A stretch of DNA of 24,125 nucleotides from NCBI GenBank assembly GCA_027596195.1, contig JADGJG010000322.1:1-24125 (forward strand). Direction: 5' to 3'. The notes under the pieces were generated by a model, which saw only the letters and a list, made by a program, of their open reading frames with translations, was not told the DNA's origin and made no database searches. Within the stretch, counting starts at the first letter, position 1; every line of letters begins with the position of its first letter. The position numbers were made by a program, and so were the translations under genes. The stretch comes from Podochytrium sp. JEL0797. Lineage: Eukaryota; Chytridiomycota; Chytridiomycetes; Chytridiales; Chytriomycetaceae. Positions 1,656 to 20,638 of this stretch are shown piece by piece.

Positions 1656-1868
1656 CTAAAACTTGATCTTGTCAAAGAAGGATCGAATCGACTGCATGCT
1701 CATCTTTGAAGATGTTGAAGCAGTAGAGTCGGTGGTGGTTGTTCGCTGCACTTTGAATCCGTATTCATTGGATTCGGCGGCGTTGGTTGGGGTGGCTTTT
1801 GGGGTTGGCGGCACGAAGACGTGGTGCTTGGGGGCCATGGAGGCGTAGACAGAAGGAGAGAGAGCCAT
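1656..1868 (-). CDS. 70-aa small-protein family, member A
   Basis: A single-exon 70-aa protein. It opens with MALSPSVYASMAPKHHVFVP, has a variable Pro/Thr/Ala/Asn patch (about residues 22-34), then EYGFKVQRTTTTDSTAS and a C-terminal SIRSFFDKIKF that could form a short amphipathic helix. There is no signal peptide or membrane span and no known domain is recognised. Six other complete members lie in the window. Substitutions between members are often silent (for example TCT/TCG and AGC/AGT serines), which argues for selection on the protein. A CATAAAAG box lies 77 nt before the ATG. Function unknown; the Ser/Thr-rich middle could be modified. Confidence 0.85.
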   Translation of the reverse strand: MALSPSVYASMAPKHHVFVPPTPKATPTNAAESNEYGFKVQRTTTTDSTASTSSKMSMQSIRSFFDKIKF

Positions 1869-1929
1869 TGTAGATTGGAGTTGCTTTTGGTTGTTGGGTT
1901 TTTGGTAGATAGCTTCTGAATGCGGAGGT

Positions 1930-2090
1930 GGGGCTTTCTTTTATGTCATTTTTGGGGATCAGGAGTCGAACATGTGTGTCTGAACCATGTTCGAATCACA
2001 TTACACTCGAGCGCCCAGGAGGCGCGTGGGAGGCGCTCGGGTGGTGCATGTGGCGCGTTCCGGGGAGGCAGCGAAGGCGTGCACCAATGG
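1930..2090 (-). promoter_or_regulatory. Promoter tract of small-protein gene A
   Basis: Minus-strand tract shared by the family. It has a TATA-like CATAAAAG (1938-1945), an upstream pair of motifs GTTCGACTCC and GGATTCGAAC-like on opposite strands, and a GC-rich GGAGGCGCGTGGGAGGCG block. It is near identical to bases 1-165. Confidence 0.7.
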
Positions 2091-2960
2091 GATTGAATAT
2101 CCGTTTTTTTTTGTAACCCCAGTTTCTAAATGCCAAATCTTTCATGATTTCGGCAATGAGATTGGACTCGGACTCGAAGAAATCATCTGTTTTAGGAGCC
2201 AATTCAAAAAAAGGGATTCCAGGGACCCAGCTGTATCCTTCGTAAATGTATTCCTCTTCAAACTTTAAAATTTTTGAGAATGTAACCACGGACAACACGC
2301 CACACGAATTGAGTATGCTTTCCACACACAAAGAAAAACTGCCGAATATATCAAGGGTATGTCTGTAAGATCGACAATCCCATCCCATGCAGTACAACGA
2401 AAACGTGAATTCGCAATCTGTACAAGCCCATGTGTCATTGTACAGGTCGCATACCGTGCGATAGCACCAGTTACACATGGTGTCGGTACGAAGGCAGGAA
2501 CACGAGTATTCTTCGCAATGGCTGCACCACTCATCCTCGGGGTCTCCACAAGAGCCGCACCTTTTGAAGCAAAGCAAGTATATCATAGTCACGAGCTCCG
2601 GTGGAACGCGATACGGTCGCAACAATGTAAACACTTTTTGTTGAGAGATTTGGGCGCCTTGGAATCGGAATCGTCCTCTGAATAGGAATCTTCGTCGCTG
2701 TCGAAGCCAGAGCAGTCAGAAAGCGATACCAACGCGGGAGGGGGTGGTCTGATGTCTGTAGCGGGCGCTTCTGGGTTCTTCTTGTCATGGACCAATACCT
2801 TGTTGCAGAGGAGAGCTCTTTGGAAGGCGTCGTGGATAGACTTGGAAGACAGCGAGATCGAGTAAACACAGACGATAATGGTGAGACGCGAAAGGAAATA
2901 GGAGACCAGGAAGATCGACAACGCTGTCGCAGCGGATTTGGAAGGGAGAATGCGCAGAGG
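1996..2960 (-). pseudogene. Cysteine-rich hypothetical protein, copy 2 (frameshifted)
   Basis: Tandem paralogue of the gene at 314-826. The 5' part (2960 to about 2640) encodes a hydrophobic segment (ALSIFLVSYFLSRLTIIVCV), then SSKSIHDAFQRALL and an acidic DSDEDSYSEDDSDS stretch. The 3' part (2634-1996) encodes RPYRVPPELVTMIY followed by paired cysteines (CGSC, CSHC, CNWC, CTDC). The two parts are joined only by a frame change at about 2630-2640, next to a run of five A (minus strand). No ATG opens the shared 5' frame. The last 30 or so codons run into the promoter tract of small gene A, so the original C-terminus is probably lost. The shift could also be a sequencing error in the A run. Confidence 0.45.
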
Positions 2961-3184
2961 GTCCAGTTTGCGAGGGGAACGCAGACACCCTCAGACGCAG
3001 TTCCCTGTGTGTGATGTCATTGGATGACTCGGGGGTTCAAAGGCTTCAAATCGAGGCGGTGGATCAAGTAGATTGCGCTGGGGAGGCAGAAAGAGTGCTG
3101 GCCAACGGGCGCGGGATTTGTGCATTTTTTGTTCTGTTCCACGCCACATCGCTTCAGAAACGTGACAATTTTTCAGCCGTCGAA

Positions 3185-6100
3185 ATGTCGCATCCCCACC
3201 ACCCCGTCCCCACCCCTTCCCATCGATCCAGCAATGCCGCCAACCCACGCATCAAATCCATCCTCAAAAAGAGATCCGAAACCGTCCTTGCAGAAACAAA
3301 ATCCGTATCCGATACGATCCAACGCCTTGTGCATTCGACCGCAAACGCGCCGCCTCTGCTCGCATCCGCCGTAATTGAACAAGCACGCGCATCACTGAAG
3401 AATCCCACAAGACCATTTACTCCTGCATTAATTGAGCGGTGGAGTGATCGCGAGGGGATTCAGGGACTGGCTTCTGCTGGGATTGAAGGGTAAAACGTTT
3501 GTTTTGCGTTTCGTTTGATTCTCCGCGTGTTTTTTGATCAACACTCTTGGAGAAAAGACTTCACCTTTCCTCATCCATTCGACACCGAGGGACGCATCTT
3601 GCGCCCAAATCTCTGCACCCGCGACGTTTGAACCCGCTGTCGATTCAACGCGACCTTCCCCACCCAGAACCACCTATCCATCAATTCGACCCGTCACCAC
3701 CACCACCACCACCATCATCATCCCATACCGACAAACCCTACCCCCAAAGAACGCAAAAGAAACTCGCCACGCGAACCAAAAACTTTGAATTCCCCGAATC
3801 CCCGCTCGCAACAGCTCCACCCCAACCCCCCGCCCCAGACGCATTCACCACAACCCTCGACTCCCTCCTCACCCTTCTCACCTCCTTCCCACACACATTT
3901 AAATCAACACCCGCCACCCACCTCCTCACAACGGTCCAAACCTCCCTCCACGAAGCACACACCCACCTCCTCGAACTCTCGTACCTCCGACACCACCAAC
4001 ACCACCCCAAACAACTCAAACCGCACCGCGACCGTGTAGTTGAGACTCTACTGTCATGGATGCACCTCTCCGTCGGGAGTGAGGTCGAAGGAGTGGAAGT
4101 CGAGATGGCCGTAGGCGTGTGCGTGGCGGTGGTGAGACTCACGCGGGACGATCGCGTGCTTGGGAACGCGTTTAAACTCATGTTCAAGCTGAGCAAGAGT
4201 GGATTGAATGATGGTGTGTTTGGGCGGTACCACGGGACAGGTAAACGTTATTTCATTCGAAGCCAAACATGTTTTCCTGAAACCAGTGCCATATTGTTTT
4301 AGATGCTGTTGTTTCCTACTTGAAACATTTAACATGCGATGACCGGCTTCTAGTGCCTCACAAATGCGATATGGCAATCTACGCGGTGGGGTTGATCAAG
4401 AATTTGAGTTCATCAAACGCGGTTGGAGCAGATTCAGGGAGTGTATTGGAGTGGAATGGGAGTGAATCCATTATTGCCGTATTATCGCGGGTTGCATGGA
4501 TCCTTTTGAACGTGAGTAAATTTTCCTTTCCCACGCATTCAATTCCAAATACAAAAAACCTCATCCGTTACCACATCCCCCCATAAAACAGAAGGATCCA
4601 ATCAAGCCAACAACCCCACCCAACCGAACCGCTCAAATCACTCAACTCCTCATCCAAATCGCCCTCACACTTCGAAACCTCCTCTCCCTCCTCCCCACAC
4701 AAACACACACACACCTATCAACTCAATTCGCTCCATCACTCAGCATGGGGTCAACCGAAACGCCTCTGGATGTTCTCATTTCAATTTTAATGGACCCCCA
4801 ACCGGGCGGGCTGCTCGACTCGCGTGAGCTCGTGCTAAACGTGAGCCGCGTGTTGAGCAAGAGCAGTTTGGATGCAGAATGTCTGGGTATAATGAGAACG
4901 GAATCAAACGTGGGAAGGATTGTTGACTGTGTGGTTCGGTTTCAAACTCAAAAGGTGAGGGAGATAATTTTCCTTTCTCCATTTCCGCTTTTCGCTAATA
5001 AGCGATTCACGAGGTGGATCTACACTCTCAGCCCCACCTGCTTCGCTTCCTCTTTGTCCTCGTCAACTTGACAACACCTCCTGAAAACGAAGAGACTCCA
5101 GTAGACCTCTGTTTGGACCAGTTTGAAAGCTACAGCGGCGACTTTGTGGCCCTGTTTTGGAAATACGCGCGCAAAGTCGTGCATCGGATGAAGAAGGGTT
5201 TTGGTTCGGAGGAGGATGACCTAGATGGCGAGGAAAGCAGTGGTGTCGATGAAGAGAGTTGGGTGGATAATGGTGGGGATAAAAAGAGGGGGAAGAGGCG
5301 AGCACGAGATGAGATGGAAACGGAATGTGAGGATGTTCTGATCAAGGTAAACGCGTGGCGCGCAGTGCATTCGGCCCCTCTCATTCCGATTTAACGCGTT
5401 TTCCATCTGCACACAGATTGTCCGACTCCTATCCAATCTTTCAGTCCACCACCCAATCGGTTCCGAAATGTCTCAAATGATTGAACTAGAGCTCATTTTG
5501 GACTTGATTGAACTCGCGTCTTGCTCGTTTCCCACTTCCAGCACCGAGGAAGAGTGTGCCGCCGATTTGCAACACGAGGAGTTGGTTTTGAATTTGGCAG
5601 GTGCTCTGGCCAATTTCACATTCTACGTGTCGTTGGAGAATGTTTTCAGCAATCGAAAGATTGAAGTCTTGGAACGTAAGTGCTGACTCTATTCCAATCT
5701 TCCGACCTCTCACACACACACGCGCAAAAAAAAGTCATGCTCCCGCTCCTCCTATCAACCAACCCCGAACTCGTTGAACAAGCCACAAGAGTCTACTCGA
5801 ACCTCTCGCGTCCCTCCCCGCACTCGCGCGACCTCCAATCCTGGTTCATCCACCACCGCGGCGGAATCGAACTCCTCTCCATCCTGCTGGACCACCCGTC
5901 GCCCAACGTTCAACTCAATGTTGCCGGAACACTTTTAAACCTGTTCACACCTCCCTGCGGGACACAATGCGCGCGAGTGTTTGAGGAGTTTGGCGGGGTT
6001 GAGAAAGTGACGGATCTTGTGGAGACGGGAATGGTGGAAGGGGATTGGGAGGTGGCTGGGGTTGGGTGTAAGGTGGTTGTGAATTTGGTTGAGTTGATGG

Positions 6101-6487
6101 GAAGGGAGGGCGTGGGGGAAGAGAAGGAAGAGAGGCTGGGTGTGTTGATGGTTCAGTATTTGGGTGAGCCGGTTTCCTTCCCATTCCGGTTATGATTAGC
6201 TAACGCGATGAATATTAGATGCTGCTGATCCTCCACTCGAAACCAAACCGCCTCTTGCTCGAATGAAAAGCCAACAAGACTTGTTTCTCGACACACCCGA
6301 GTCGGAGATTCCGCTGGAAGTCGAGACAACACGTCCTATCTTGACAGAAGAGGAGCGTGATTTTGTGCTCGTTGCGAAAAGGCTGCTTGTCGCGTTGGGA
6401 TACGGGAGCGGCTGTTCTGATTCGGACTCGGCTGAAGAGGACAGCGATTCAAGGCCTCCAATAGGAGTGGTTGAAGTCGGGATATAA
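3185..6487 (+). CDS. ARMC2: ARMC2-like armadillo-repeat protein (flagellar)
   Basis: Eight exons join in frame to 949 aa: 3185-3489, 3558-4240, 4303-4511, 4592-4954, 5014-5346, 5417-5675, 5735-6163, 6219-6487. All introns are GT-AG and 46-80 nt or so. Residues 1-100 are basic and Ser/Pro-rich, and 110-220 are Pro/His-rich and low in complexity. From about 225 to 860 there are helical armadillo-like repeats, clearest in the C-terminal third (ELVLNLAGALANFTFY, QATRVYSNLSR, VQLNVAGTLLNLF, EEFGGVEKVTDLVE). An acidic-then-basic insert lies at about 575-615, and the tail is acidic. ARMC2 proteins are needed for sperm axonemes in animals and for radial-spoke 3 assembly in algae; human ARMC2 is about 870 aa. 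Assignment rests on repeat pattern and C-terminal motifs read by eye. A generic ARM-repeat protein is the alternative. Confidence 0.7.
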
Positions 6488-6630
6488 ACCCAATAAATTT
6501 CTTATCATTGAGCAAATAAAATGACAAAGAAGGACGCGATTGCCAAGCCAGAAAGGGTTCGTTTCCATTCCCTTCGCGCCCATCACCTCACCAAAACAAA
6601 ATAAAAAACAACAAAAATACGGGTGCCCCA

Positions 6631-8295
6631 ATGGCAGCTTCCTTTTCGAGTGCAACCATCTCATATTATGGCACCGGATCGCCTGGAGACCCTTCTCCCA
6701 TCGGCGGGACGGGAGCGTGCGGATTGACGCCAACCGATCCGTGAGTTTGATTGACCCATCATGAACTCCTCTCAATTACTTTTACAGCAACTTCTTTGCC
6801 GCCGTCACCACGAGCCTCATGCAATCCCACAACATATGCGGAATGTGCGCACAAATCACTTGTCCCCAGGTAAGAAGCATCCCCCGAGCGAGGGTTCTCC
6901 ATTTTGAACCTTTGTTTTGACAAACCCAGTGTTCGGGTCGAATCGTAATCACGGAAATCATCGACACCTGCTCCACGTGTGATACAACACCCGACCATGG
7001 ATCCATCAATATTTCGCTGCAATCGATGGGGGCGTTGTTGGGCGGCGTTTCAAACGCTCAGAGTGCGGGAGTCATTCGAAACGCGTCGTGGCAGGTCGTT
7101 GCGTGCCCACCAGTACTTGGGCTTGTTGGTCCAGCTCCATCGGTGACAACTGCAGTAGTATCTACCACGATTGGTGCCATCACCACGAGTTTGGCAGGTC
7201 CATATTTCTTTGATAGTGTGGATTGAACTTACCGAAAATTCAGCAGAGAGCACAAACCCTTCTTCCACTCTGACGACTGCACTTGTTACACCAACGTCAA
7301 ATTCCAACCCCTCCACAACGGCCACATCGAAAACACCACCTCCTCCAACTACAAAATCACCAAACACGGCCCTCGTTGGGGCAATCATTGGAGGGCTTGC
7401 CGCCTTCGTAGTTCTCTCCGCCATCGCTCTCCTCTGCTACAAACGCAATCGATCCAACAAATCGCAGACACTGCCCACCACCTCCCCCTCCACCACCACT
7501 CGTGAACAAACGCCTCTCGTTCCGGAAGAAACAGACCCCCAATTCTTTGACCTTCCCGAAACAACCAGCGCTTCCAGTATACCCGCAAACACACATGAAC
7601 TCCGAGTCTTGACTCCATCGACTCCCGTCGAATCAGAATACCATCATGGTAACCCATTTCCTTCCTCCCACAGCAACACTGCATTTTTGATATCCATGGC
7701 AGGATCCACATCCTCACCATCCACCAACGCGGTAACTCCCTCTGCGAGCGAGAAACACGGTGACCCGATTCTATTTGCTGCCATGACGGGAATCGCTGTC
7801 CCAGCACAAACGAGCGGTGCGTCTGAAAAGAGACGGGGATCATCGCGGGGAGTGTTTGATGCGATGGGGGAGGATGTGAAGTCTGCGGATCAGAGGCGGA
7901 TGGAAGGGGGTGACGAGGAAAGAGGGAAGGGAGGGTTTCAAGCGATCGAGATTGGTTTGTGGAGTGTGGAGAATGTGTGTGCGTGGTTGGAGAGTCTTAA
8001 TTATGATGAGGATGTTGTTGACAAGTTTCGAGGTGAGTTTTTCGAATGGTCGTCGAGGCCGCGTTTTAATCTCGTGAATGCAACAGACAAGGAATGTACA
8101 GGTCACGACTTGAAAGCCATGAGTGCCAGTGATGACAATTGCTTCGAAGTCCTCACGACGCGATTCATGATTCCCGGATTTGGAACGAGACTCGGGTTGG
8201 TGCAGCAAATTCGCGGGTTGTTTACAACCAACACTCAGCCGGTTCTGGTTCAAGCTGATGACTTTCCTCCTGCCTATATACCCCTTCCCGAGTGA
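6631..8295 (+). CDS. Expansin-like barrel, TM and SAM-domain membrane protein, paralogue 1
   Basis: Five exons give 484 aa: 6631-6740, 6788-6869, 6930-7197, 7247-8032, 8087-8295 (7244 is an equally in-frame acceptor for exon 4). Residues 8-123 form a double-psi beta-barrel of the expansin/RlpA type: YYGTGSPGD start, GACG, CGMCAQITC, the IIDTC motif with its Asp, SINISLQSM, and a closing WQVVAC. A Ser/Thr/Pro stalk follows. A membrane span lies at about 196-218, followed by YKRNR, so the barrel should face out. The cytosolic part has TDPQFFDLP and a C-terminal SAM domain (about 388-460). The end is PPAYIPLPE; PPAY (476-479) fits the PPxY ligand of WW domains. No cleavable signal peptide is seen. 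The last intron (54 nt) lacks stops, so its retention would keep the frame. Confidence 0.75.
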
Positions 8296-8519
8296 CATGG
8301 CTCTTGACGCGAATGACACGAAATAGATTCCACGATTCCTACCTTTATTTTATCTATTTTCATATCTATCTCTCATATCCACCAAATAAAAACTGCATAT
8401 CCTCTTTTCTTGGTTCTTTTGGTGGCTGATTTTCCTTTCCGCCAAAAGGCCACCAAAAGGCCCTGTTTGAGGCTTGTGTCTGCCCAGAAAATCGCCAAAA
8501 AATTCTGAACCTCTTCCCA
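8296..8519. other. Intergenic between the SAM paralogues
   Basis: AT-rich 3' end of the upstream gene (AATAAA-like word at about 8386), then the short promoter of the second paralogue. A direct repeat of gccaaaaggccaccaaaaggcc type lies at about 8440-8462. No exon encoding a signal peptide was found here. Confidence 0.5.
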
Positions 8520-10098
8520 ATGACAACCTCGTTTTCCGGCGCGAACCTCTCTTTTTACGGCACCGGATCGCCCGGAGACCCCTCTCCCGTCACAGGAACG
8601 GGATCTTGTGGACTCACAGCGTTGGATCCGTGAGCATTCGCACCCTTCGTATTCATCACCCACTGCCATTATTAACCCGCGTATCCTTCAGCAACTTCTT
8701 TGCCGCCGTCACCACGAGCCTCATGCAATCCCACAACGTCTGCGGAATGTGCGCACAAATCACTTGTCCCCAGGTAAAACTGACAACCCCCCCGAGGTCC
8801 TGATTGTTGATTCAATTTTGAACCTTTGTTTTGACGAGCCAGTGTTCTGGCCGAACCGTGATCGCCGAAATCATCGACACTTGCCCCACATGCGATAACA
8901 CCCCCGACCACGGATCCATCAACGTGTCGTTGCAAACTATGGCCGCGTTGTTGGGCGGCACATCGAACGCCCAGAACGCCGGTGTTGTTCGAAACGCGTC
9001 GTGGCAACTGATTGCGTGTCCACCTACATTGGGATTGACTGGATCTCCGTCTTCTACGGCAACTGCCTCGTCCTCAGCGTCACCTTCTCCAAGTGGGGGT
9101 GCGATCGTGCCTGGAGAATCCGTGTCCAAGGGACCACCCACAGCCGCCATCGCGGGAGGTGTTGTAGGAGGCCTCCTAGCCCTTGCACTGATCGCCTTCT
9201 TCGTATACAAGCGTCGAAACAACACGGGTCCCGCGAAACCCTCTGCTCCAGCCATGATTGTATCGGACCAAACGGACCCGCAATTCTTTGACGCGCCAAG
9301 AACTCCACCAACCAATGATACCATTGAACTCACGCATTCTCCGTCGGTGGTGGTTGTCCCGCTTGAAACGATCGCCTCAAGCGCCAGTCTCGATTCCCGA
9401 ACCGGCTCGACCCACGCCGCCTTTTTGACGTCCACGACTGCAGTGAACAGCTTGCATCTCTACCCCCTTGAAACCGGAGGTGCGAAAGTATCACCCCCTC
9501 TCCTTTCAGCGTTGCTCGAAAAGGCCGTATTGTCAGAGAACGAGAGCCGACGAGGCAGTATCGCCTCATCTGCAGTTGGACACCCGCACTTTGCATCAAT
9601 GGATAAGAAGGGACTCGACACGAGACCGACGCAGTTGTTTGAAGGTATGGCCGAGGTTGCGGCGACGACGGTCAGTGGGAGCAAAGGAATGGAAGCTGGG
9701 GCTGGGTTTAAAGGGGTGCAGCCCGGGTTGTGGAGTGTGGAGCATGTGTGTGCGTGGTTGGGGAGCATGAATTATTCAGAGGAGGTTGTGGACAAGTTTA
9801 GAGGTAAGCTTTTGAGGGTGTTTTTTGGATCCGTTAGAGGCACCGCGCGTAGTTTCTGCTTCTTTTTTGCTGATTCATTCCCAAAAAACCAGACAAGGGA
9901 TGCACGGGACAAGACCTCAAAAACATGAGTGTGAGCGACGACAACTGCTTCGAGGTGCTCACTTCGCAATACTTGATTCCCGGACTGGGCATGCGATTCG
10001 GACTCGCCCAGCAAATCCGCGGGTTGTTTGCCGTCAGTGCGTCGGTGGGTTCTGCAGAGGATTTGGGAGAGAGTCCTCCGGCCTATTTTCCTTTGTGA
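8520..10098 (+). CDS. Expansin-like barrel, TM and SAM-domain membrane protein, paralogue 2
   Basis: Four exons give 452 aa: 8520-8629, 8692-8773, 8843-9803, 9893-10098. The first two exons have exactly the lengths of the upstream paralogue (110 and 82 nt) and the introns share phase. The barrel is residues 8-123 (IIDTCPTC, SINVSLQTM, WQLIAC) and the stalk is Ser/Pro-rich. The TM at about 164-186 is followed by YKRRNN. A cytosolic TDPQFFDAP motif matches the paralogue. The SAM domain is about 355-430 (SVEHVCAWLGSMNYSEEVVD, then CTGQDLKNMS and QQIRGLF). The protein ends SPPAYFPL, with PPAY at 446-449. It lacks the third intron of paralogue 1. Expected topology is N-out without a cleaved signal peptide. 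Ligand and partner are unknown; the barrel may bind wall polysaccharide, by family analogy. Confidence 0.75.
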
Positions 10099-10527
10099 GG
10101 CACAAGGATTGCTGGATCGGTCCGCCACGACACACGAATAAGATTATTTTTGGCGAGATACGCAATATATCCATATTTACTTAATAAGAAAAAGTTAGTG
10201 CAAAATTAAATTGTTGCAACAGCCCGTCACTGCAGCCTCTCAAATATATTACATGCGCGCTCGCGGAGCCTGAATCCTCCCTCAACTCTCCACACGCTTT
10301 TCGCGCTAATTTTGTCCTTTGACTGTGAAATTTGGGGTTGCAAAATGGAGTGACAATCTTCTCTAAAAATTGGCGAAGTAAAAACTTTATTGGATTGTGG
10401 ATATTTACGGGCCTCTTCCAGAAGCAGCACACACTGGGTATATTAGTTCCGGACTACAAATTAAGGGGGCTGGTAAAGAGGAAAGAGGGAAGGGAAATGT
10501 CTCGATAGAGGACGCTAATTTCGCGAA
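10099..10527. other. Intergenic, no gene seen
   Basis: 3' flank of the second SAM paralogue and AT-rich spacer. Short ORFs on both strands show no recognisable motif or paralogue. Confidence 0.4.
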
Positions 10528-10708
10528 TTCAATTCACGAATTTCCAGCGTGATACAAGAGAAACGCGCCGTGTCGCCCTCATGCTGTCTCCCAGCGACAC
10601 TTGGTCCATGGGGAGAGTATATTGTGTACGAAACCCCAAACTCAACGACGCGCGGGTCATTAGAATACAGGAATCGCAAACTTCATTTGATGTTACCATC
10701 CCCGTGAA
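10528..10708 (+). repeat. Duplicated segment, inverted copy at 18050-18232
   Basis: About 180 bp is highly similar to the reverse complement of 18050-18232; both lie just upstream of a small-protein promoter tract. Each can be read as an open frame with SDTWSMGRV, CVRNPKLNDA and VIRIQ. The differences between the copies that I read are mostly amino-acid changing, so coding function is doubtful. It is probably a fragment of an unknown gene carried along by duplication. Confidence 0.6.
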
Positions 10709-10714
10709 ATCTCT

Positions 10715-10885
10715 CCGCGTGCTTCTGCACACTCTCCGGAACGCGCCATACACCACCCGGGCGCCTCCCACGCACCTCCTGGGCGTTCATGTGTCATGGG
10801 ATTCGAACTTGGTGAGACACACATGTTCGACTCCCGATCGCCGAGAAATGACATAAAAGAAAGCCACACCGCCGCGTTCAGAAAG
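10715..10885 (+). promoter_or_regulatory. Promoter tract of small-protein gene B
   Basis: Family promoter tract: GC-rich GCGCCTCCCACGCACCTCC block, GGATTCGAAC and GTTCGACTCC motifs, then CATAAAAG at 10852-10859, exactly 69 nt before the ATG at 10921. Confidence 0.7.
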
Positions 10886-10920
10886 TATCTATCACAACCA
10901 AAAAGCAACACCAATCTACA

Positions 10921-11133
10921 ATGGCTCTCTCTCCATCTGTCTACGCCTCCATGGCCCCCAAGCACCACGTCTTTGTGCCGCCGACCCCAAAACCCACCCC
11001 AACAAACACAAGCGAATCCACCGAATACGGATTCAAAGTGCAACGAACAACCACCACCGACTCTACTGCTTCAACATCGTCAAAGATGAGCATGCAGTCG
11101 ATTCGATCGTTCTTTGACAAGATCAAGTTTTAG
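10921..11133 (+). CDS. 70-aa small-protein family, member B
   Basis: Single-exon 70-aa member with the standard ends (MALSPSVYASMAPKHHVFVP and SIRSFFDKIKF). The variable patch reads KPTPTNTSESTEYG. Its 3' flank (11134 to about 11200, with the word ataaataaaacgtctgcatattc split over the poly(A) region) is almost identical to that of member D, so B and D are products of one recent duplication of roughly 600 bp. Function unknown. Confidence 0.85.
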   Translation: MALSPSVYASMAPKHHVFVPPTPKPTPTNTSESTEYGFKVQRTTTTDSTASTSSKMSMQSIRSFFDKIKF

Positions 11134-11379
11134 CGAAATCATTTATTATTTTCATTCTCTGTTTCGATCCTATAAATAAAACGTCTGCATATTCAACACT
11201 CTTTTGCACATCTTCGTTATTGAACAGGATTAACTCCCACGTGGAAGAATTCCTCATTCGCGATATAATACCCGATGCCCGTTATCACACCGGATGCCCG
11301 CGTTATTTTCATCCCCCAGCCACCCCACTTCCATACGTAATAATGGATTAAATTAAGATGCGTTTCACGTGTTCGGAAC

Positions 11380-11538
11380 GTCCACGTTGCGGTCTCTTCG
11401 TCATTTCCTCACGCGCCTCGGCGCCTCCCTTCTCCACACGCGCCGGTGCCTTCCGGGAAACTTAGCCACACCGGGTGGGCGAAATCTTGACGAATTACCA
11501 AGTTCGACTTGTCCGATCGAAAATTTTGATATAAAAGG
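11380..11538 (+). promoter_or_regulatory. Promoter of divergent member C, with TATA box
   Basis: A canonical TATAAAAG lies at 11531-11538, exactly 69 nt before the ATG at 11600, the same spacing as CATAAAAG in the typical members. The upstream block (TTTCCTCACGCGCCTCGGCG, CTTCTCCACACGC, CCACACCGGG) differs from the usual tract and has an inverted relic at about 12950-13100. Confidence 0.6.
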
Positions 11539-11599
11539 GCAGCCCCGGAGAAACCGACACATCTATTCAAACAACACAAAACTACATTAACAATCTATA

Positions 11600-11833
11600 A
11601 TGGCTCTCTCTCCATCCGTTTTTGCGTCCATGGCCCCCAAGAACCACGTCTTTATCCGATTGGACGATCAACCCACACTCGGACTCCCTCTCTCGCGGTC
11701 TGCCACAACAGAATCGACTGACTTTGGGCTTCAAGTCCCCCGAACCAGCACGTCCGAATCGGCAAGCTCGAGTGCTTCAAGGACAAGCAGGCAGTCTGTC
11801 AGGTCGTTTTACAAGAAGCTCATGTTTTTTTAA
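11600..11833 (+). CDS. 77-aa divergent member C of the small-protein family
   Basis: This single-exon protein keeps the N-terminal signature (MALSPSVFASMAPKNHVF) and the overall plan. The middle is rewritten (IRLDDQPTLGLPLSRS). The Ser/Thr stretch is PRTSTSESASSSAS, and the C-terminus is SVRSFYKKLMFF instead of SIRSFFDKIKF. The Asp of the C-terminal helix becomes Lys and an extra Phe is added. It is the oldest-looking member here and shows which positions are constrained: the first 18 residues, the F/Y-G-x-x-V segment and the S-[IV]-R-S-F end. Confidence 0.8.
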   Translation: MALSPSVFASMAPKNHVFIRLDDQPTLGLPLSRSATTESTDFGLQVPRTSTSESASSSASRTSRQSVRSFYKKLMFF

Positions 11834-11913
11834 ATCTTTTTCTTGAATATTTATATAAATCGGAAATATATCCTGCTCGTTCTCCCTCAATATTCCCGAA
11901 TCCTCTTTCTACA

Positions 11914-12236
11914 TTAACGATAATAGGTACGTAAGGCGCGGAAATCGACGCGCACACACGCCCAACCAGCACCCACACCGTGCTCAATCAAATTTGTCAA
12001 TTTCCAGGCCACAGCCTCTATCTCGATCCTTTTCGCATTCCCAACCAGATGCAATCTTTCGAATTTCGCCCATAGACAGGTGTAGAAAACCTGATAATTG
12101 GTGAAGGGGGGTAAATGAATATGATATAAAGGCATGGTTTTGTTGGAAAACTCATAAACGAGAATACGAGGGCAAGCGATGTGAGCTTATAGTCAACATT
12201 GAGGCCTCCTTCATGTGGGAGAGCGAACGAAATCAT
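11914..12236 (-). pseudogene. Unassigned ORF pair, possibly a broken gene
   Basis: Two overlapping minus-strand frames (12236-12018 and 12135-11914) read as if one protein had been shifted: an N-terminal part with MISFALPHEGGLNVDYKL and a C-terminal part with LPPFTNYQVFYTCLWAKFE and IEIEAVAWKLTNLI. I recognise no family, and no promoter signal is apparent. It may be random ORFs; included because the C-terminal frame has protein-like composition. Confidence 0.2.
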
Positions 12237-12299
12237 GACAGTTTAGGCATTTGAAACTGGGATTAGAAAACAGAGAACAAATATTCAAACACATTGTAA

Positions 12300-12490
12300 A
12301 TGACTGATATCGATGACGAACGCCTCCCGTACTTCTGCACACTCTCCCGAACGTTCCCTAGCACCACCCAGGCGCCTCCCACGCGCCTCCTCGGCGTTCA
12401 TGTGTCATAGGATTCGAACATGGTTCAGACACAAAGTTCGACTCGTATCGCCGAGAAATGACATAAAAGAAAGCCCCGGCGCCGCATTCA
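12300..12490 (+). promoter_or_regulatory. Promoter tract of small-protein gene D
   Basis: Complete family tract, starting near the shared word atgactgatat. It has CGCCTCCC repeats, GGATTCGAAC and GTTCGACTCG motifs, and CATAAAAG at 12462-12469, 69 nt before the ATG. Confidence 0.7.
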
Positions 12491-12530
12491 GAAGGTATCT
12501 ATCAAAACCAAAAAGCAACTCCAATCTACA

Positions 12531-12743
12531 ATGGCTCTCTCTCCTTCTGTCTACGCCTCCATGGCCCCCAAGAACCACGTCTTTGTGCCGCCGACCCCAA
12601 AAGGCAACCCAACGAATGCAAGCGAATCCAATGAATACGGATTCAAAGTGCAACGAACAACCACCACCGACTCTACTGCTTCAACATCTTCCAACATGAG
12701 CATGCAGTCGATTCGATCCTTCTTTGACAAGATCAAGTTTTAG
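12531..12743 (+). CDS. 70-aa small-protein family, member D
   Basis: Single-exon 70-aa member, MALSPSVYASMAPKNHVFVP to SIRSFFDKIKF. Its variable patch reads KGNPTNASESNEYG. The His at residue 15 is Asn, as in member C, and the residue before MSMQS is Asn rather than Lys. Promoter and 3' flank match member B closely. Function unknown. Confidence 0.85.
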   Translation: MALSPSVYASMAPKNHVFVPPTPKGNPTNASESNEYGFKVQRTTTTDSTASTSSNMSMQSIRSFFDKIKF

Positions 12744-12859
12744 CGAAATCATTTATTATTTTCATTCTCTGTTTCGATCCTATAAATAAAACGTCTGCAT
12801 ATTCGAAACTCTTTTTCTACGCTCTTTTGCATATTTTCGTTATTGAAGACCCCACTTTA

Positions 12860-13110
12860 GAATAAGCTTCGCAAACTTCGCGGAAGTATTCGTCCTTCGC
12901 GATATACCCGATGCTCGTTTAATCAAAATGCATGACTATTAAAAGTTTTTGATTTGTCGCGTTTTCCCGGTGTGGCCAAGTTTCGGCACCTCAGCGTGTG
13001 GAGAAGCGGGGGGCATGTGGAGAAGTTGGGGCCGGGGGCCGAGGCGCGTGAGGAAACGGCGAATTGATCGGACTGACAAAGAGAAAGCAATGTGTAGTTC
13101 CAACCTGGAT
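12860..13110 (-). repeat. Inverted relic of the member-C promoter
   Basis: Read as reverse complement, about 12950-13080 contains TTTCCTCACGCGCCTCGGC, CTTCTCCACACGC, GGTGCC and GCCACACCGGG in the same order as 11395-11495 upstream of member C. No small-protein ORF follows on the minus strand, so the gene has been lost and only a promoter fragment remains. Confidence 0.5.
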
Positions 13111-13193
13111 CATCTTAATTTAATCCCTTAATGCGTGTGTGTGGAAATGCGGATTTTTTTGAGTTGTCAAGCAATTTATTTTTGAGGTTTTCG

Positions 13194-13409
13194 CTAAAAC
13201 TTGAGCTTGTCAAAGAAGGATCGGATCGACTGCATACTCATTTTGGAAGAGCTTGAAGCAGTGGAGTCGGTGGTGGCTGTTTGTTGCATTTTGAATCCGT
13301 ATTCATTGGATTCGGCGGCGGCGTTCTTTGAGGCGACTTTTGGAGGCGGTGGCACAAAGACGTGGTGCTTGGGGGCCATGGAGGCGTAGACAGAAGGAGA
13401 GAGAGCCAT
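13194..13409 (-). CDS. 71-aa small-protein family, member E
   Basis: Single-exon member of 71 aa. It differs from A, B, D, F and G by VPPPPKVASKNAAAE in the variable patch (one extra residue), KMQQTATTDSTASSSS in the middle and DKLKF at the end. The promoter is the most diverged of the typical members: the pyrimidine-rich stretch around the CATAAAAG box is altered (ATAAAAAT at about 13470). Expression may be weaker; that is inference. Confidence 0.8.
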   Translation of the reverse strand: MALSPSVYASMAPKHHVFVPPPPKVASKNAAAESNEYGFKMQQTATTDSTASSSSKMSMQSIRSFFDKLKF

Positions 13410-13484
13410 TCTAGATTGTAGTTGTTTTTGGTTGATGAGTTTTTGGTAGATATTTTATGAACGCGACATTTTTATTTTCTGGTG

Positions 13485-13600
13485 TCTGACTATGTTCGAA
13501 TCACCTTACACTCAAGCGCCCGGGAGGCGCGTGGAAGGCTCCCGGGTACATGTGGCGCGTTCCGGGGTGTGCGGAAGAGTGTCGTGCATTCGTTCAGAAT
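13485..13600 (-). promoter_or_regulatory. Eroded promoter tract of member E
   Basis: It keeps the GTTCGAATCA motif and the GCGCCCGGGAGGCGCGTGG and GGCGCGTTCCGG blocks of the family tract, but lacks the standard TTTCTTTTATGTCATTT segment. Confidence 0.5.
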
Positions 13601-13614
13601 ATTTTCTTTTTTAC

Positions 13615-13845
13615 GTCGTGGCTAAGGGCTCCTCCATTTGCCAACGGGGCTAGTCTTTCGCGCTTCGTGTTGAATTTGAAACGAAGTCATCGAACTGGGA
13701 GATTCAGGAGAACGCTTTTCGTAACATTCTTCGCACTCGACGTCGTAACGAAACTTGAGTGGAACGGTTCTTCCAATCTACGCAATGCATTGAACACCTG
13801 GAATCTCGGTCATTACAGACCCATCCGCCGTTGCACAGTACGGTC
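13615..13845 (-). pseudogene. Relic of the Cys-rich gene, third copy
   Basis: Reverse complement of about 13690-13840 reads CNGGWVC, then CSMHCVDW, which aligns with the Cys block of copies 1 and 2 (W-x-C, then S-x-x-C-x-x-W). In another frame it reads FRYDVECEECYEKR, matching FRYYREVRFCEECFEKR in copy 1. Only the 3' third remains. It sits beyond the promoter of small gene E, just as copies 1 and 2 sit beyond theirs, so the gene pair moved or duplicated as a unit. Confidence 0.55.
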
Positions 13846-13920
13846 GTTAATTCTCGAATCAAAAAATGCCTATATTTTCTTCAACACACAGAAATTCGCC
13901 CCAACCCCCAAAAACCTCTT

Positions 13921-14262
13921 TCAACGCGTCTGAATAATTCCCGCATTGATCAACGTTCTAATCTTGGCAGCAATCACCGGGTTCTTCATGTGACTGTACA
14001 AAAACAAAGCAAAAAACCAATCAGTACCCAACCCCCCTAAATACACACACAAAACAACTTACTCTCTCGCAGCCGCCGGGTCTTCCTGCATCTGCTGCAA
14101 AATCGACTTCATAACGGGATCCCCCATAATCTGCTGCACCTCCGGGTTCTGCATCGCACGCGCCATGATTTCCTCACGGTTGCCGCCAGTGTCGGCTTCG
14201 CTTTGAACGTCGTTCAACCCGTTGTAGGCTTTCATCATCTGCAAAAACACAAGGTCAGTTCC

Positions 14263-14294
<32 letters not shown>

Positions 14295-16753
14295 AAAACA
14301 AAACAAAAAACAACACTCACAATCCCTTCAATCTCATTCCCATGCTTCCCCTCCACATCCTTCTCCCTCGCCTCATTACACATATCAATCGCCTTCGTAA
14401 ACTCCCTCTTGGCCACAAGAATCGACGCCTTACGCACGTAAGCCTTCACGAACGCAGGGTCAATCTTCAACGCAGCGTCACAGTCCTTGTCAGCTTCAGG
14501 GAGAGCCATGAGCTTAATGTAACAAGCGGCACGGTTCGAAAAGTTGCGCGCGTCACGGTCGTTGCGTTGGATGGCTTCCGTATATTGCTTCACGGCTTCA
14601 GGGAAGGCGTTCTTTTTGAAAAGTTCGTTGCCGAGTTCGCGGGCCGCGTCGGCGAGGGCGGGGTCGCGGTAGGCTTCCTTCTCCGCCTCCTTCGCAAGCT
14701 TCTCACAATCGCGCAGTTTGTTCAGAATGTCGGGGGTGCGGTGCTCCGAGAGGGACTTTTGGAAATATTTGATGGCGTTGGTGTAGTCCGATTGCTTGAA
14801 GTAGGCGTTGCCCATGCGTCCAAAGGCTTTGGCAATGATTTTGAAGTCGGCGCGTTGGGAACGACCGGTTTCGATGGCTTCTTCGCAGACTTGGATGCAC
14901 GTGGGGTAGTCGCCCATTTCGAAGAGGACGGCTGCGGTGATGGGGTTCGGTTAGTGCGTGTGAACGGTGTGGATGGCTGGGTGTACGATCGACATTCGCG
15001 AGGCGAAATCGCCCCGCACAACCCCACAATCAACACCGAACAAAAGAAACATACCAGACTTGTTGGTCAACACAGCCAAGTTCGACTCATCCAACTCCCA
15101 CGCCTCATTGTACTTTTGCAACGCCTCCTCAAACTGACGCTTCTTGTACAACGCATTTCCAGCCTCCTTCAACTTATCACTCGCAGCCCTCTTCTCCTTC
15201 TTCTCCTTCTCCTCATCCGTCACTTCCTCATCCACCTCCATCGGCTCCGGAGCCTTCTGCGCAGCAGGGGCAGCAGCAGCAGGAACCTGCTTCTCTTCCG
15301 CATCCTCCTCCTTACGCATGGCATCCATCTCTTCCCTCCCCATCGCCTTGGCATCGAGTCCCATCAACGCCAACATGGTGTTCATGAGGCGCGGGTCCTG
15401 CATGTACTGGTTGATGGCGCTCGGGTTCTTTTGGATTTCAGCAATTTTCTGCACGTAGTCGGGTTGCGCGAGGAAGGGAGAGAGTTTGGGGTTCGCGGCA
15501 ATTTTGGCGAAAATGTCTCCGCTAAAGATTTTGCCGAGGCCTTTGTTTTGGGGGGGAGGGGTGATATGTGAGTTAAAAAAAGAAGCTATGCTGTAAACTC
15601 CGCTGCGCGACACGCCTCGCGCATATCTTGCACGCTTCGCTCGTTCCCTCTTCTCACCACGCGCTTTGCGCAAATCTTGCCGCTGCACGCGTGTGCTTCG
15701 CTTCGCTCCACTCCACTCCCCTCCGCATCGCCTCGCTCCGCTTGGCTCCGCAAAAAAAACAACTCACCCATGTCCATGTCATCGCTATCAGCCATCTCGG
15801 AATCCTTGGGAGCATTCTTTTGCTCCTCCGCCAACGCAAGCGCCTCCTCCATACCCTTCTTCATCTGGGCATTCGATGGTTCGAGATCAAGACCAGCCTT
15901 GTAGGCCTCGGCCGCCTCTTCGTATTCACCCATGCCGTGTAGAGCGGCACCCTTGCGCGAGTATCCCTTGGGCCAGACAGGGTTCAGTTTGATGGTTTCT
16001 TCTGCGTCGATGAGGGCTTTGGAGTAGTTGCGGAGGGAGGAGAAGGCGGCGGATCTGAATCAAAAAAGTGAGCATTGAGATTCCTCTTTGAAAAAGAGAG
16101 GGAATATGCACCTGTTAGAGAAGAGCACGTGGTTCTTGGGGTCCTTGGCGATGGCTTCCGTAAAGTACTTGACGGCGAGGTGGTGGGAACCGGCGGAAAA
16201 GGCCTTGTTGCCGAGGGCCTTGAGTTCGTCAGCAGACAAGGAAGCAGTGTCGATCGAGAGCGTGGCCGTGAGTTGCTCCACTTTGGCGATTTCAGCCCCA
16301 ACAACCTTTGCAAAAATTAATAAATAAAATAAAATAAAAATAAAATAAATCACACACCTGGTCCAGCTTGGCACCGTTCTGGAAGAACATGAATGTGGGC
16401 ATTGCGGTAACCTCGTAGCGCTGGGCAATCTCCTTCATTTCATCGACATCGACCTTGAGGAAGGTCACGTTGGGAAACTGGGCTGCGAGTGCTTCGAAGC
16501 GAGGAGCAACGGCCTTGCAGGGGCCGCACCAGGTGGCCTAGGGAGAGTGTGGGTGAGTGTTTGACTAGGAGAAGGCGAGATACTAGTGATTTACCGTAAA
16601 GTCAACGACCGTCAGGTTGGCACTGCGAATGTGCGTGGAGAACTAGGCAGCGTGGTTAGACAACTAGAGAGAGTCGCTAGGGAGTCCCTAGGGAGTCCCT
16701 AGAGAGAAACACAGGGCACTCACAGTCGCGGCGTCGTGGATCGCAGTCGACAT
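13921..16753 (-). CDS. STI1: Thioredoxin-STI1/HOP fusion co-chaperone
   Basis: Nine exons give 694 aa: 16724-16753, 16595-16642, 16358-16537, 16112-16305, 15768-16054, 15055-15540, 14321-14931, 14063-14238, 13921-13993. Residues 1-102 are a thioredoxin with the WCGPC active site (29-33) and the MPT cis-proline. Then come TPR1 (about 111-225), DP1 (248-310), an acidic KEKK-rich linker, TPR2A (about 366-485), TPR2B (about 500-612) and DP2 (625-690). Carboxylate-clamp residues are kept in all three TPR modules (KxxGN or RxxGN, then N, then KxxxR). STI1/HOP passes clients from Hsp70 to Hsp90 in the cytosol; yeast Sti1 is 589 aa with no thioredoxin. Exon 4 encodes both the thioredoxin end ([12 protein letters not shown]) and the TPR1 start, so the fusion is not a model artefact. 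Confidence 0.9.
14263..14289. repeat. (CA)n microsatellite inside a STI1 intron
   Basis: About 13 CA units lie in the 82-nt intron between exons 7 and 8 of the STI1 fusion (14239-14320). On the coding strand it is (GT)n. Confidence 0.9.
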
Positions 16754-16964
16754 GTTTTGTTTTGTTTTTTGGTCGAGAAAAAAATGCTTCGAAGCAATTC
16801 CGCAGTCTTCCACACGCCTTGCTTTCCTCCCCACGAAACTATATCAAATCCGGTTTACATCAAAACACTCAATAGACAATACAACCACTGCTATTATATT
16901 TTTCAATATACAAGCTTTTAAAAGTAATTTACTTAAAACGAAAAGGGGGAAGACAATATTCCGA
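16754..16964. other. Upstream region of the STI1 fusion
   Basis: AT-rich spacer between the STI1 start codon and the SAM pseudogene. TTCGAAGCAATTCC at about 16786 contains inverted TTC/GAA units, but not with the spacing of a heat-shock element, so no HSE is claimed. Confidence 0.35.
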
Positions 16965-17340
16965 AGTGAGCACCTCGAAGCAGTTGTCGTCACTGAAACT
17001 CATATCTTTAAGGTCTTGTCCCGTGCTAAGTTGTCTTCGTTTTTTGGGAACGGAATCACCAAAGAGGAAGCAAAAACTTGGCAAAAACTACACTCAAACA
17101 CTACCAAACTTTTCGAAAAATTCATGCTTCTCAACCACACATGTTCCGCACCCCTACAATCCGGTTTCCTTTCCAATTTTCAAACAATTGAGATAGTCTT
17201 GCGGCGTCGAATCCTTTCTGATGTATCCATCGATTCGAAACGTGTTTTTGTCCAACGGCCGAAAATGCGAAACTGCCTTCGCCGGCCCTCGCTCTCTGAC
17301 AAGACAGCCTATTTGAGTAGCTCTGAAAGCTGGGAATTGG
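16965..17340 (-). pseudogene. Decayed 3' end of a barrel-TM-SAM gene
   Basis: Read on the minus strand, this region follows the 3' part of the gene at 8520-10098 in order: the CTGTCTTGTCAGAGAGCGAG area, a GTTGGACAAAAACACGTTTC block, GGGTGCGGAACATGTGTGG, the intron end CCGTTCCCAAAAAACGAAG, and the last exon with DLKDMSFSDDNCFEVLTS. One base is missing just after the intron relative to the intact paralogue, and stops break the upstream exon. The barrel, TM and PPAY tail are absent. Confidence 0.7.
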
Positions 17341-17344
17341 GTAA

Positions 17345-17600
17345 TTAATTTTTAGTTGCAAGACGCGCTGAAAAATGACAAATTTTTTTTGGATGGCTCC
17401 AAACGAGGGAATCAGGATATATATCGCGAGTGCTGCCTCGGAGATTCGGTGACCAAGCCTGTTCAATAACGAAATTGCTGCGAAATTTCGCTTCCATGAT
17501 GACACTTGAAAAGGTTATCGGCAAGCGTTTGTAACGAATTTTGAATATTCAAATTTTATTCAGAGGATCAACGAGAGAATGAAAATATATGTATATATGA
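17345..17600. other. Spacer 3' of small gene F
   Basis: Part (about 17480-17600) resembles 1540-1650, the 3' flank of member A. No gene is seen. Confidence 0.4.
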
Positions 17601-17605
17601 TTTCA

Positions 17606-17818
17606 CTAAAACTTGAGCTTGTCAAAGAAGGATCGGATCGACTGCATGCTCATATTGGAAGATGTAGAAGCAGTAGAGTCGGTGGTGGTTGTTCGTTGCA
17701 CTTTGAATCCGTATTCAGTAGATTCGCTGGCGTTAGTTGCGGAGATTTTTGGGGTCGGCGGCACAAAGACGTGGTGCTTGGGGGTCATGGAGGCGTAGAC
17801 AGATGGAGAGAGAGCCAT
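17606..17818 (-). CDS. 70-aa small-protein family, member F
   Basis: Single-exon 70-aa member. Residue 12 is Thr instead of Ala (ASMTPKHHVF), the variable patch reads KISATNASESTEYG, and the C-terminus is SIRSFFDKLKF. It is closest to member G, 0.6 kb away in the same orientation. The CATAAAAG box lies 77 nt before the ATG, as in member A. Function unknown. Confidence 0.85.
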   Translation of the reverse strand: MALSPSVYASMTPKHHVFVPPTPKISATNASESTEYGFKVQRTTTTDSTASTSSNMSMQSIRSFFDKLKF

Positions 17819-17879
17819 TTTAGAATAGAGTTGCTTTTGGTTGTTGGGTTTTTGGTAGATAGCTTCTGAACGCGGCGGT

Positions 17880-18025
17880 GGGGCTTTCTTTTATGTCATT
17901 TTTGGGGATCAGGAGTCGAACATGTGTGTCTGAACCATGTTCGAATCCCATGACACATGAGCGCCCAGGAGGCGCGTGAGAGGCGCCCTGGTGGTGCATG
18001 TGGCGCGTCCCGGAGAGTGTAGAGA
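17880..18025 (-). promoter_or_regulatory. Promoter tract of small-protein gene F
   Basis: Family tract in minus orientation. The CATAAAAG start is at 17895, and the GTTCGACTCC and GGGATTCGAAC motifs and the GGAGGCGCGTGAGAGGCGC block are present. A G-rich run (about 18031-18047) marks its outer end. Confidence 0.7.
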
Positions 18026-18049
18026 AGCAGGGGGGAGGGGGGGGGGTTT

Positions 18050-18232
18050 CACGGGGGATGGTAATATTAAATGAAGTTTGCGAATCCTGTATTCTAATGA
18101 CCCACGCGTCGTTGAGTTTGGGGTTTCGTACACAATTTACTCTCCCCATGGACCAAGTGTCGCTGGGAGGCTGCATGAGGGCGACACGGCACGTTTCTCT
18201 TAAAACGCGTTGGAAATGGGTGAATTGATCCA
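18050..18232 (-). repeat. Duplicated segment, inverted copy of 10528-10708
   Basis: See the partner segment. This copy can be read from an ATG at 18233 as an open frame that runs on through the whole promoter tract of gene F. That reading includes the tract itself and is not believed to be a gene. Confidence 0.6.
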
Positions 18233-18453
18233 TCTCGGACTTTCAATTTGAAATGATGCTACGTGCCTTCGAACACGCGCATCAAATTACACCAGTTATG
18301 GTAGTTGGAGGTTGTATCACTTGACGAAATGGTTTTTATTGAGGATTAAAAAGGGAAAGTTGGTCAAGTGGAACTTTAAACTTCATTTTGTTTTATTTTT
18401 TTACGCAATAAATACAGATAGACAAAATGAGAAAGTGGGCTGAAAATAATTGA
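18233..18453. other. Spacer, no gene seen
   Basis: AT-rich sequence between the duplicated segment and the 3' end of small gene G. No family member, promoter tract or recognisable coding signal. Confidence 0.35.
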
Positions 18454-18666
18454 CTAAAACTTGAGCTTGTCAAAGAAGGATCGAATCGACTGCATACTCA
18501 TTTTGGACGATGTTGAAGCAGTAGAGTCGGTGGTGGTTGTTCGTTGCACTTTGAATCCGTATTCAGTAGATTCGCTGGCGTTGGTTGCGGAGACTTTTGG
18601 GGTCGGCGGCACAAAGACGTGGTGCTTGGGGGCCATGGAGGCGTAGACAGAAGGAGAGAGAGCCAT
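18454..18666 (-). CDS. 70-aa small-protein family, member G
   Basis: Single-exon 70-aa member, differing from F at only three positions (residue 12 Ala, KVSATN in the variable patch, Lys rather than Asn before MSMQS). Its 3' flank is unlike those of the other copies, so the duplication that made it ended near the stop codon. The CATAAAAG box is 69 nt upstream of the ATG. Confidence 0.85.
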   Translation of the reverse strand: MALSPSVYASMAPKHHVFVPPTPKVSATNASESTEYGFKVQRTTTTDSTASTSSKMSMQSIRSFFDKLKF

Positions 18667-18717
18667 TGTAGATTGGAGTTGCTTTTTGGTTGTGATAGAT
18701 ACCTTTGGAACGCGGCG

Positions 18718-18870
18718 GTGGGGCTTTCTTTTATGTCATTTCTCGGCGATCAGGAGTCGAACATGTGTGTCTGAACCATGTTCGAATCCCATGACACATG
18801 AGCGCCCAGGAGGCGCGTGGGAGGCGCCTGGATGGTGCATGTGGCGCGTTCCGGAGAGTGTGGAGAACAC
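18718..18870 (-). promoter_or_regulatory. Promoter tract of small-protein gene G
   Basis: Family tract with CATAAAAG starting at 18735, the two TTCGA motifs and the GC-rich block. It ends where the transposon's left end begins. Confidence 0.7.
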
Positions 18871-18873
18871 CGC

Positions 18874-19024
18874 CACAAGTTCTCTGTTCGGAATCGGATT
18901 AGAAATAAGTTCCTAAGTCGATCAGGGCCATGAGATCCAATTTTGAACTATAGTGTTCTGGTCGAATTCCGATCAAACAATCCGATCACATTCCGGTTCT
19001 GAATCCGATGGGAATTCGAACAGA
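18874..19024. repeat. Left terminal and subterminal repeats of the transposon
   Basis: Contains TCTGTTCGGAATCGGAT (18882-18898), TCTGGTCGAATTCCGAT (18957-18973) and an inverted partner GGAATTCGAACAGA (19011-19024). The inner pair could form a hairpin or give two transposase-binding sites. Confidence 0.5.
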
Positions 19025-20545: not shown

Positions 20546-20638
20546 TTTTTAAAAAGTTTGTAATGAAATGCGAGCCATTTGTCATTGATATTTTGATGCA
20601 CCGTGACACACAATCGTTTGTTGATTCCTTCAAAATTA
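20546..20638. promoter_or_regulatory. Bidirectional promoter region of the transposon genes
   Basis: 93 bp separates the two divergent start codons (20545 minus and 20639 plus). It is AT-rich with runs of A and T and must carry the start signals of both genes unless upstream exons exist. Confidence 0.5.

Follow-up and report, generated by a model that had tools for sequence, protein, structure and literature searches.

A locally amplified family of small chytrid proteins under purifying selection, with a promoter element that may link it to homeodomain genes

Introduction

The DNA analysed here, referred to as the window, is the whole of contig JADGJG010000322.1 (24,125 bp; G000:C249, below C249) from the 24.4 Mb, 995-contig genome assembly of the chytrid Podochytrium sp. 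JEL0797. It carries seven members of a family of genes that encode proteins of about 70 amino acids (aa). The family is under purifying selection, which acts most strongly on the Ser/Thr and C-terminal blocks in closely related (sister) pairs, and very probably represents a real, selected gene family; it appears to be undescribed in the searches made. Our preferred reading, to which we assign a probability of roughly 0.4, is that the family consists of small disordered binding proteins that are switched on at a particular stage, raised in dose by amplification, and co-regulated with homeodomain genes. Both the switch and the binding partner are what we infer from the features described below.

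Family Members and Copy Number

The initial annotation, made from the sequence of the window, described seven complete members on both strands and the promoter tracts of two more running off the edges. All seven open reading frames (ORFs; A1–A6 and B1, Table 1) were recovered, each open and encoding 70–77 aa, and both edge tracts are present. When the A2 protein was used as a query, the six other members were matched at expectation values (E) of 3.5e-16 to 4.7e-38, above chance. In an alignment, four of these six are 90–94% identical to A2, A4 is 81% identical and B1 is 51% identical (56% in the genome search match). The nearest copy of B1 is B2 on contig C600, at 92% identity.

A genome search with one member returned 21 rows. 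Two of them belong to a single frameshifted copy, so that the total is 20 copies: C249 has seven, C600 three and C324 ten (3 of the 995 contigs). With B1 as the query there were 22 matches, on the same three contigs and one, at E 0.65, on C166; the latter was taken as chance. When C249, C324 and the first 10 kb of C600 were scanned with a profile in six frames, the only addition was a weak remnant at C324:1990–2061. Since the window is a whole contig, both of its edges are assembly breaks. Four of the six contig ends fall within a copy: C249 breaks off in a copy on either side, C600 starts on its left at codon 5 of a copy, and C324 stops on its right at codon 68 of a copy. This makes a single array likely and 20 copies a lower bound. 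C249, C324 and C600 are thus probably neighbours in one larger array that was split by the assembler, as judged from the broken ends. On C324, the D7–D8 and D9–D10 pairs repeat at about 2.36 kb. The duplicated D8/D10 unit (C324, L023:6807–7728, with the repeat from about 9166) also holds an ORF that by eye resembles diphthine-ammonia ligase.

Selection on the Coding Sequence

Nonsynonymous and synonymous differences per site (pN and pS) were counted for 18 of the about 20 copies, excluding D1, which has an in-frame stop, and the frameshifted copy on C600. Across seven sister pairs there were 33.5 synonymous differences for 361 sites, and 27.5 nonsynonymous ones for 1088. The resulting pN/pS is 0.27 (bootstrap 0.15–0.49), and the binomial probability of so few amino acid changes under neutrality is 1e-6; the counts are small, the pairs were picked by us from similarity, and a later tree does not resolve several A-group forks. 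The highest value for a single pair within the A, B and D groups is 0.76, for A4 and the C600 copy A7.

Constraint is distributed unevenly along the protein. In the sister pairs, pN/pS is 0.43 for alignment columns 1–20, 0.79 for the variable patch (columns 21–43), 0.06 for the Ser/Thr block (columns 44–60) and 0.07 for the C-terminal block (columns 61–78). The corresponding values for all pairs, in which shared changes enter many times and decayed copies are included, are 0.38, 0.56, 0.52 and 0.29. The initial annotation had noted that silent changes are common and that the ends of the protein are conserved around a variable patch, and had suggested purifying selection. These counts and the member alignment bear it out: the sister-pair ratio is far from the dN/dS near 1 that would have spoken against selection.

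Protein Sequence, Structure and Relatives

The full-length forms have 69–77 aa and are encoded by single uninterrupted ORFs. Their ends are conserved, while the middle is variable. In an alignment of 15 members, M1, A2, L3, S4, P5, S6, A9, S10, G37, T43, S51, R62 and S63 are invariant, and the conserved blocks are the N-terminal end MALSPSVYASMAPKxHVF, the Ser/Thr block YGFxVxRTTTxxSTxS and the predicted C-terminal helix SIRSFFDKhKF. AlphaFold, run with eight sequences, predicted helices at residues 5–10 and 50–68 with low confidence between them. The second of these agrees with the C-terminal helix proposed in the initial annotation, again at low model confidence. From the low-confidence middle of the model, we infer that the proteins may be largely disordered.

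The statement that the protein has no known domain held up in all three collections searched. The best Pfam match among 15 members was to a single member at E 0.063 and did not reach the curated cut-off, 16 sequences had no match in NCBIfam at E up to 1, and a profile search of the PDB gave three matches at E 0.79 and above, none of them meaningful. A 24-residue query from the C-terminus had no PDB match at E up to 10, but so short a query makes this weak evidence. A scan of viral contigs gave eight pattern matches, none of which was confirmed. No signal peptide was recognised by eye (no secretion predictor was run).

Searches of 5.8 billion predicted proteins yielded one relative, the uncharacterised 56-aa hypothetical protein BCR33DRAFT_717510 of Rhizoclosmatium globosum (P0001; E 3e-6). 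These searches need shared five-residue words, similar length and an annotated protein, and could miss unannotated relatives. P0001 shares 25 identical residues with member D8, spanning the MAPKNHVF, RTST and SIxxF blocks, and when used as a genome query it found 17 matches, only to this family and on the same three contigs. The BCR33DRAFT_717510 locus tag was not found in the literature searched, and the family is not named in the titles and abstract openings of the literature found by search.

Two candidate signatures are absent in their strict form. The members do not match the consensus of the PCNA-interacting protein (PIP) box, Q-x-x-[ILM]-x-x-[FY]-[FY], although MQSIRSFF resembles such boxes. 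Nor do they have the C-terminal CaaX of fungal lipopeptide pheromone precursors, as the full-length members end in KF, MFF or LI.

Promoters of the Family

The five A-group genes compared are 86–93% identical over the 200 bp before the ATG, while positions -221 to -420 cannot be aligned (29–53%), except between A2 and A5 (90%). Because the duplicated unit may simply end near -200, this upstream identity alone is weak evidence for constraint. Stronger evidence appears to come from a core common to two otherwise different promoter types. In a comparison of 20 promoters (excluding the left-edge tract), the two types differ over most of their length, and a common GTTCRA box lies 87–105 nt before the ATG in 18 of the 20; a TATA-like box is found 50–79 nt before the ATG in 14 of them. 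The leaders of the family genes are short and A/C-rich.

The fixed promoter described in the initial annotation therefore survives as this core (the GTTCRA box and, in most cases, the TATA-like box) and not as a single tract, since there are two types and the full type I tract occurs in five of the seven window members; B1 has another upstream tract, and A4 is without the core segment. A genome search with the A6 promoter gave 11 matches on the same three contigs, all of them next to a contig end or a family copy. The same kind of search with the 250 bp upstream of B1 found only that stretch itself and C600:538–648, about 200 bp before B2. As this search misses the D copies, the link between types I and II rests on the 20-promoter alignment.

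Promoter Patterns in the Genome

The first, loose pattern, GTTCRAC-N12-36-SATAWAAG, has 13 sites in the genome, nine of them in the family and the others at a C84 homeodomain gene, C209, C379 and C445. It led to C84:24178, which lies in front of a homeodomain gene (E 3e-10 in Pfam). The exact 14-mer AAATGACATAAAAG has nine genome sites, in eight family promoters and in this one homeodomain promoter. The stricter pattern GTTCGACT-N8-38-ATAAAAG has 12 sites, compared to one for the reversed control: nine family promoters, including both edge tracts; two sites on C84; and one on C209 that lies within open frames of unproven coding status. The pattern being post hoc, its weight lies in the near-absence of other sites and not in its hits. 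By our own estimate, which is equally post hoc and takes all four bases as equally frequent, about 1e-4 occurrences of GTTCGACT together with the 14-mer at this spacing would be expected in 24.4 Mb.

The promoter test for a shared regulon found GTTCGACT 84, 97 and 104 nt before the ATG in three C84 genes. The sites at 24178 (+) and 20767 (−) are those at 97 and 84 nt, respectively, the gene at the latter having been assigned as a homeodomain gene by a match at E 4e-25; the third is retained in a duplicate of the first gene. A homeodomain search of the genome gave 26 rows (L046–L071), mostly in tandem clusters (C74, C84, C314, C330 and C580), a large number for a 24 Mb fungus. Of these, 25 were used for promoter comparison (the fragment L065 was dropped); each gene was taken to begin at the first in-frame ATG, an assumption that may fail for some. 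When the 25 whole promoters were locally aligned with nine of the family, L046 scored above all 200 shuffles and L047 reached p 0.03; L062 and L049 reached p 0.035 and 0.04, respectively, which is not unexpected among 25 tests.

An inverted second element often accompanies GTTCGACT. The pattern TTCGAAC-N14-44-GTTCGACT has 14 sites, compared to two for its control, of which eight are in the family, one is at a homeodomain gene, two are identical sites before an Old Yellow Enzyme-like gene, and three look coding or intronic by eye. The two identical sites belong to L076 and L077 (C667:68185 and 108324), identical genes recognised by eye as Old Yellow Enzyme-like, and may reflect either chance or a wider regulon. 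The perfect dyad GTCGAAC-N4-20-GTTCGAC has three sites (before D7 and D9 on C324, and one on C331), with two for its control. We consider it somewhat probable that the family shares a regulator with homeodomain genes.

Feature Coordinates and Neighbouring Genes

Table 1. Family members and promoter tracts in the window.
Feature	Position	Strand	Details
Promoter tract, copy beyond left contig end	1-137	−	
Member A1	1656-1868	−	70 aa, open
Type I promoter of A1	1869-2067	−	GTTCGACT at 1964-1971
Type I promoter of A2	10723-10920	+	GTTCGACT at 10825; TATA-like CATAAAAG begins 69 nt before ATG
Member A2	10921-11133	+	70 aa, open
Type II promoter core of B1	11502-11537	+	GTTCGACT ... ATATAAAAG
Member B1	11600-11833	+	77 aa, open; separate subfamily, type II promoter
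Type I promoter of A3	12333-12530	+	GTTCGACT at 12436
Member A3	12531-12743	+	70 aa, open
Member A4	13194-13409	−	71 aa, open; promoter lacks its core, GTTCGACT to TATA
Type I promoter of A4, distal remainder	13482-13575	−	
Member A5	17606-17818	−	70 aa, open
Type I promoter of A5	17821-18026	−	GTTCGACT at 17914-17921
Member A6	18454-18666	−	70 aa, open
Type I promoter of A6	18667-18890	−	GTTCGACT at 18755-18762; dyad TTCGAAC/GTTCGACT at 18755-18786
Promoter tract, copy beyond right contig end	23933-24125	+	ends a few bases short of the expected ATG

The window also contains genes outside the family. A split gene at 13924–16755 (−) appears to encode a thioredoxin (Pfam E 2e-21), then TPR repeats and a DP domain of the STI1/HOP type, and would be a thioredoxin–STI1 fusion if the exons form one gene. 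Two genes lie in tandem at 6640–10098 (+), with an N-terminal part that is conserved, a transmembrane segment and, below the Pfam cut-off, a SAM-like stretch. The N-terminal part is barwin/expansin-like by eye, although two short pieces of it had no Pfam match. An inverted fragment of the SAM-like stretch is found again at 16947–17026. Tandem Cys-rich ORFs lie beside family promoters at 301–826 (−) and 1996–2788 (−), the first without a Pfam match above the cut-off.

The region 20597–23374 (+) holds an acidic ORF headed by a C2H2 finger (zf-C2H2, below the cut-off) and a long ORF that by eye resembles a DNA-transposon protein; neither has a Pfam match above the cut-off. A tRNA-like stretch, GGTTCGATCCCCGGTTCG, at about 23470–23545 (+) was not called by ARAGORN or Rfam, and scans of the window with both found no tRNA or other Rfam match.

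Discussion

The preferred reading, a stage-switched and dose-amplified family of small binding proteins, would work as follows. A stage-specific activator would bind the GTTCGACT box and turn on many copies together with the C84 homeodomain genes. The fixed N-terminal end and the predicted amphipathic C-terminal helix would dock on a partner, the Ser/Thr block could serve as a phosphorylation-type switch, and copy number would raise the dose of an adaptor or inhibitor. An adaptor or inhibitor is our first choice, as binding through short linear motifs would suit the conserved ends, a linker without predicted structure and the lack of a recognised fold; we put this mechanism forward tentatively. 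A more specific version is that the small-protein array and members of the homeodomain cluster form a developmental switch under a common promoter code, in which GTTCGACT is combined with TATA and often also with a second, inverted box TTCGAAC, the small proteins acting as dose-dependent cofactors or antagonists of the regulatory complex of the same stage; as it stands, we regard this as rather unlikely.

If true, the promoter link to homeodomain genes would be the surprising part. Families of small proteins confined to a single lineage are easily overlooked, as the one relative among 5.8 billion predicted proteins illustrates. Here, a clear signature of selection is combined with a short promoter element that may tie the family to homeodomain regulators in an early-diverging lineage of fungi, and the family offers a concrete way into stage control in chytrids.

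Several observations count against this reading. All promoter patterns were written after the promoters had been inspected, and are descriptions, not predictions. The 13 sites of the loose pattern compare with nine for its reversed control, and AAATGACATAAAAG with up to one mismatch has 15 sites (nine exact and six with one mismatch, including one in the family), compared to 11 for the control. The type II form, GTTCAAC-N10-40-TATAAAAG, is not enriched (three sites, control four); its sites include member D4 and one on C20, just before a secreted-looking ORF. GTTCGAC is found in the family orientation in only three of the 25 homeodomain promoters and inverted in two more, and two of the three genes are recent duplicates. 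With 20 of the 25 having no GTTCGAC on either strand, the element is not general for homeodomain genes. Whole-promoter similarity to the family is clear for only one of the three, L048 having p 0.8.

The protein evidence has its own weak points. The AlphaFold model is poor, with a mean predicted local distance difference test score of 64 and a predicted template modelling score of 0.21. The first 20 columns reach a pN/pS of 0.43 in the sister pairs. The all-pair value, with diverged and decayed copies included, is 0.44 overall and 0.52 for the Ser/Thr block, so that the constraint on this block is weaker over longer times. Of the C324 copies, D1, D7 and D9 are truncated and D5 has diverged strongly, and on C600 one copy carries a frameshift; individual cases could be errors of assembly. 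Finally, codon use is not special compared to other genes of the genome: the fraction of NNY codons that end in C is 0.69 for the A group and 0.62 for B and D, compared to 0.55–0.66 for four other genes or gene pairs. The suggestion in the initial annotation that the protein is made in large amounts thus finds no backing in codon use.

Codon use bears equally on the first alternative, that the family has a storage, structural or ribosome-associated role in the dormant zoospore and is produced in late sporulation. The many copies, TATA-type promoters and short A/C-rich leaders would suit such a protein, and chytrid zoospores contain dormant ribosomes, according to passages of one report (PMC8887899). 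Zoospore dormancy is accordingly a possible stage for the family, not evidence for it; with ordinary codon use and no Pfam or PDB relative, we consider this alternative unlikely.

The C-terminal sequence MQSIRSFFDKIKF could instead be a PIP box, making the members PCNA-binding peptides that tune DNA replication or repair, a role played by small disordered partners of PCNA in other systems. Its I-x-x-F-F spacing, followed by basic residues in the predicted C-terminal helix, fits this idea, and some PIP boxes of Y-family polymerases lack the first Gln. However, the family has M, R or T where the canonical box has Gln, the Rhizoclosmatium protein has FL instead of FF, the short C-terminal query had no PDB match (weak evidence, as noted above), and so short a motif is likely to be frequent by chance. 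PCNA binding therefore seems decidedly unlikely.

Local amplification with a weakly constrained patch, such as the 0.79 of columns 21–43 in sister pairs, also occurs in diversifying arrays of secreted or surface peptides (pheromone precursors, antimicrobials or others). The N-terminus is not hydrophobic and signal peptide-like by eye, however, the six A-group window members contain no Cys, and there is no CaaX end, which makes this alternative quite improbable. It is very improbable that the family is in decay and its recent duplicates mostly functionless: five of about 20 copies, on C324 and C600, are truncated, strongly diverged or frameshifted, but all seven window copies are open and the sister pairs are constrained.

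It is hardly credible that a mobile or repetitive element carries the copies along and that the ORF has no cellular role: the family does come as blocks of roughly 480 bp (promoter, ORF and 3' tract; the A6 3' tract differs) on both strands, with flanks that do not align among five copies except for A2/A5, and transposon-like ORFs lie near (window 20597–23374), as do retrotransposon-like ones on C600 and C324, by eye, but matches are limited to 3 of 995 contigs (plus the E 0.65 match on C166), 11 of 11 promoter-tract matches adjoin a family copy or a contig end, pN/pS is well below 1, and a relative exists in another genome. The initial annotation had named a transposon ORF as the finding that would overturn it; there was no sign of one and the copies are not dispersed (no search aimed at terminal repeats or target duplications was made).

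Among known systems, the closest is P0001, which shares with the family the MAPKNHVF start block, an FGLxVPRTST Ser/Thr block and SIxxF near the C-terminus. It differs in its annotated start, which corresponds to Met 11 of the family, its shorter middle and its last residues. The C84 homeodomain genes resemble the family in promoter and arrangement, three having GTTCGACT at the same distance from the ATG, two of these with ATAAAAG downstream, and being tandemly amplified; the proteins are unrelated, two of them matching the Pfam Homeodomain PF00046. Small disordered proteins that bind PCNA or inhibit enzymes are similar in size, predicted disorder and the presence of one short C-terminal helix, but no sequence relation was found and the first PIP-box residue is not conserved. 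More generally, locally amplified families of small proteins confined to a single lineage are a kind of thing that is already known, and the family described here is one of them.

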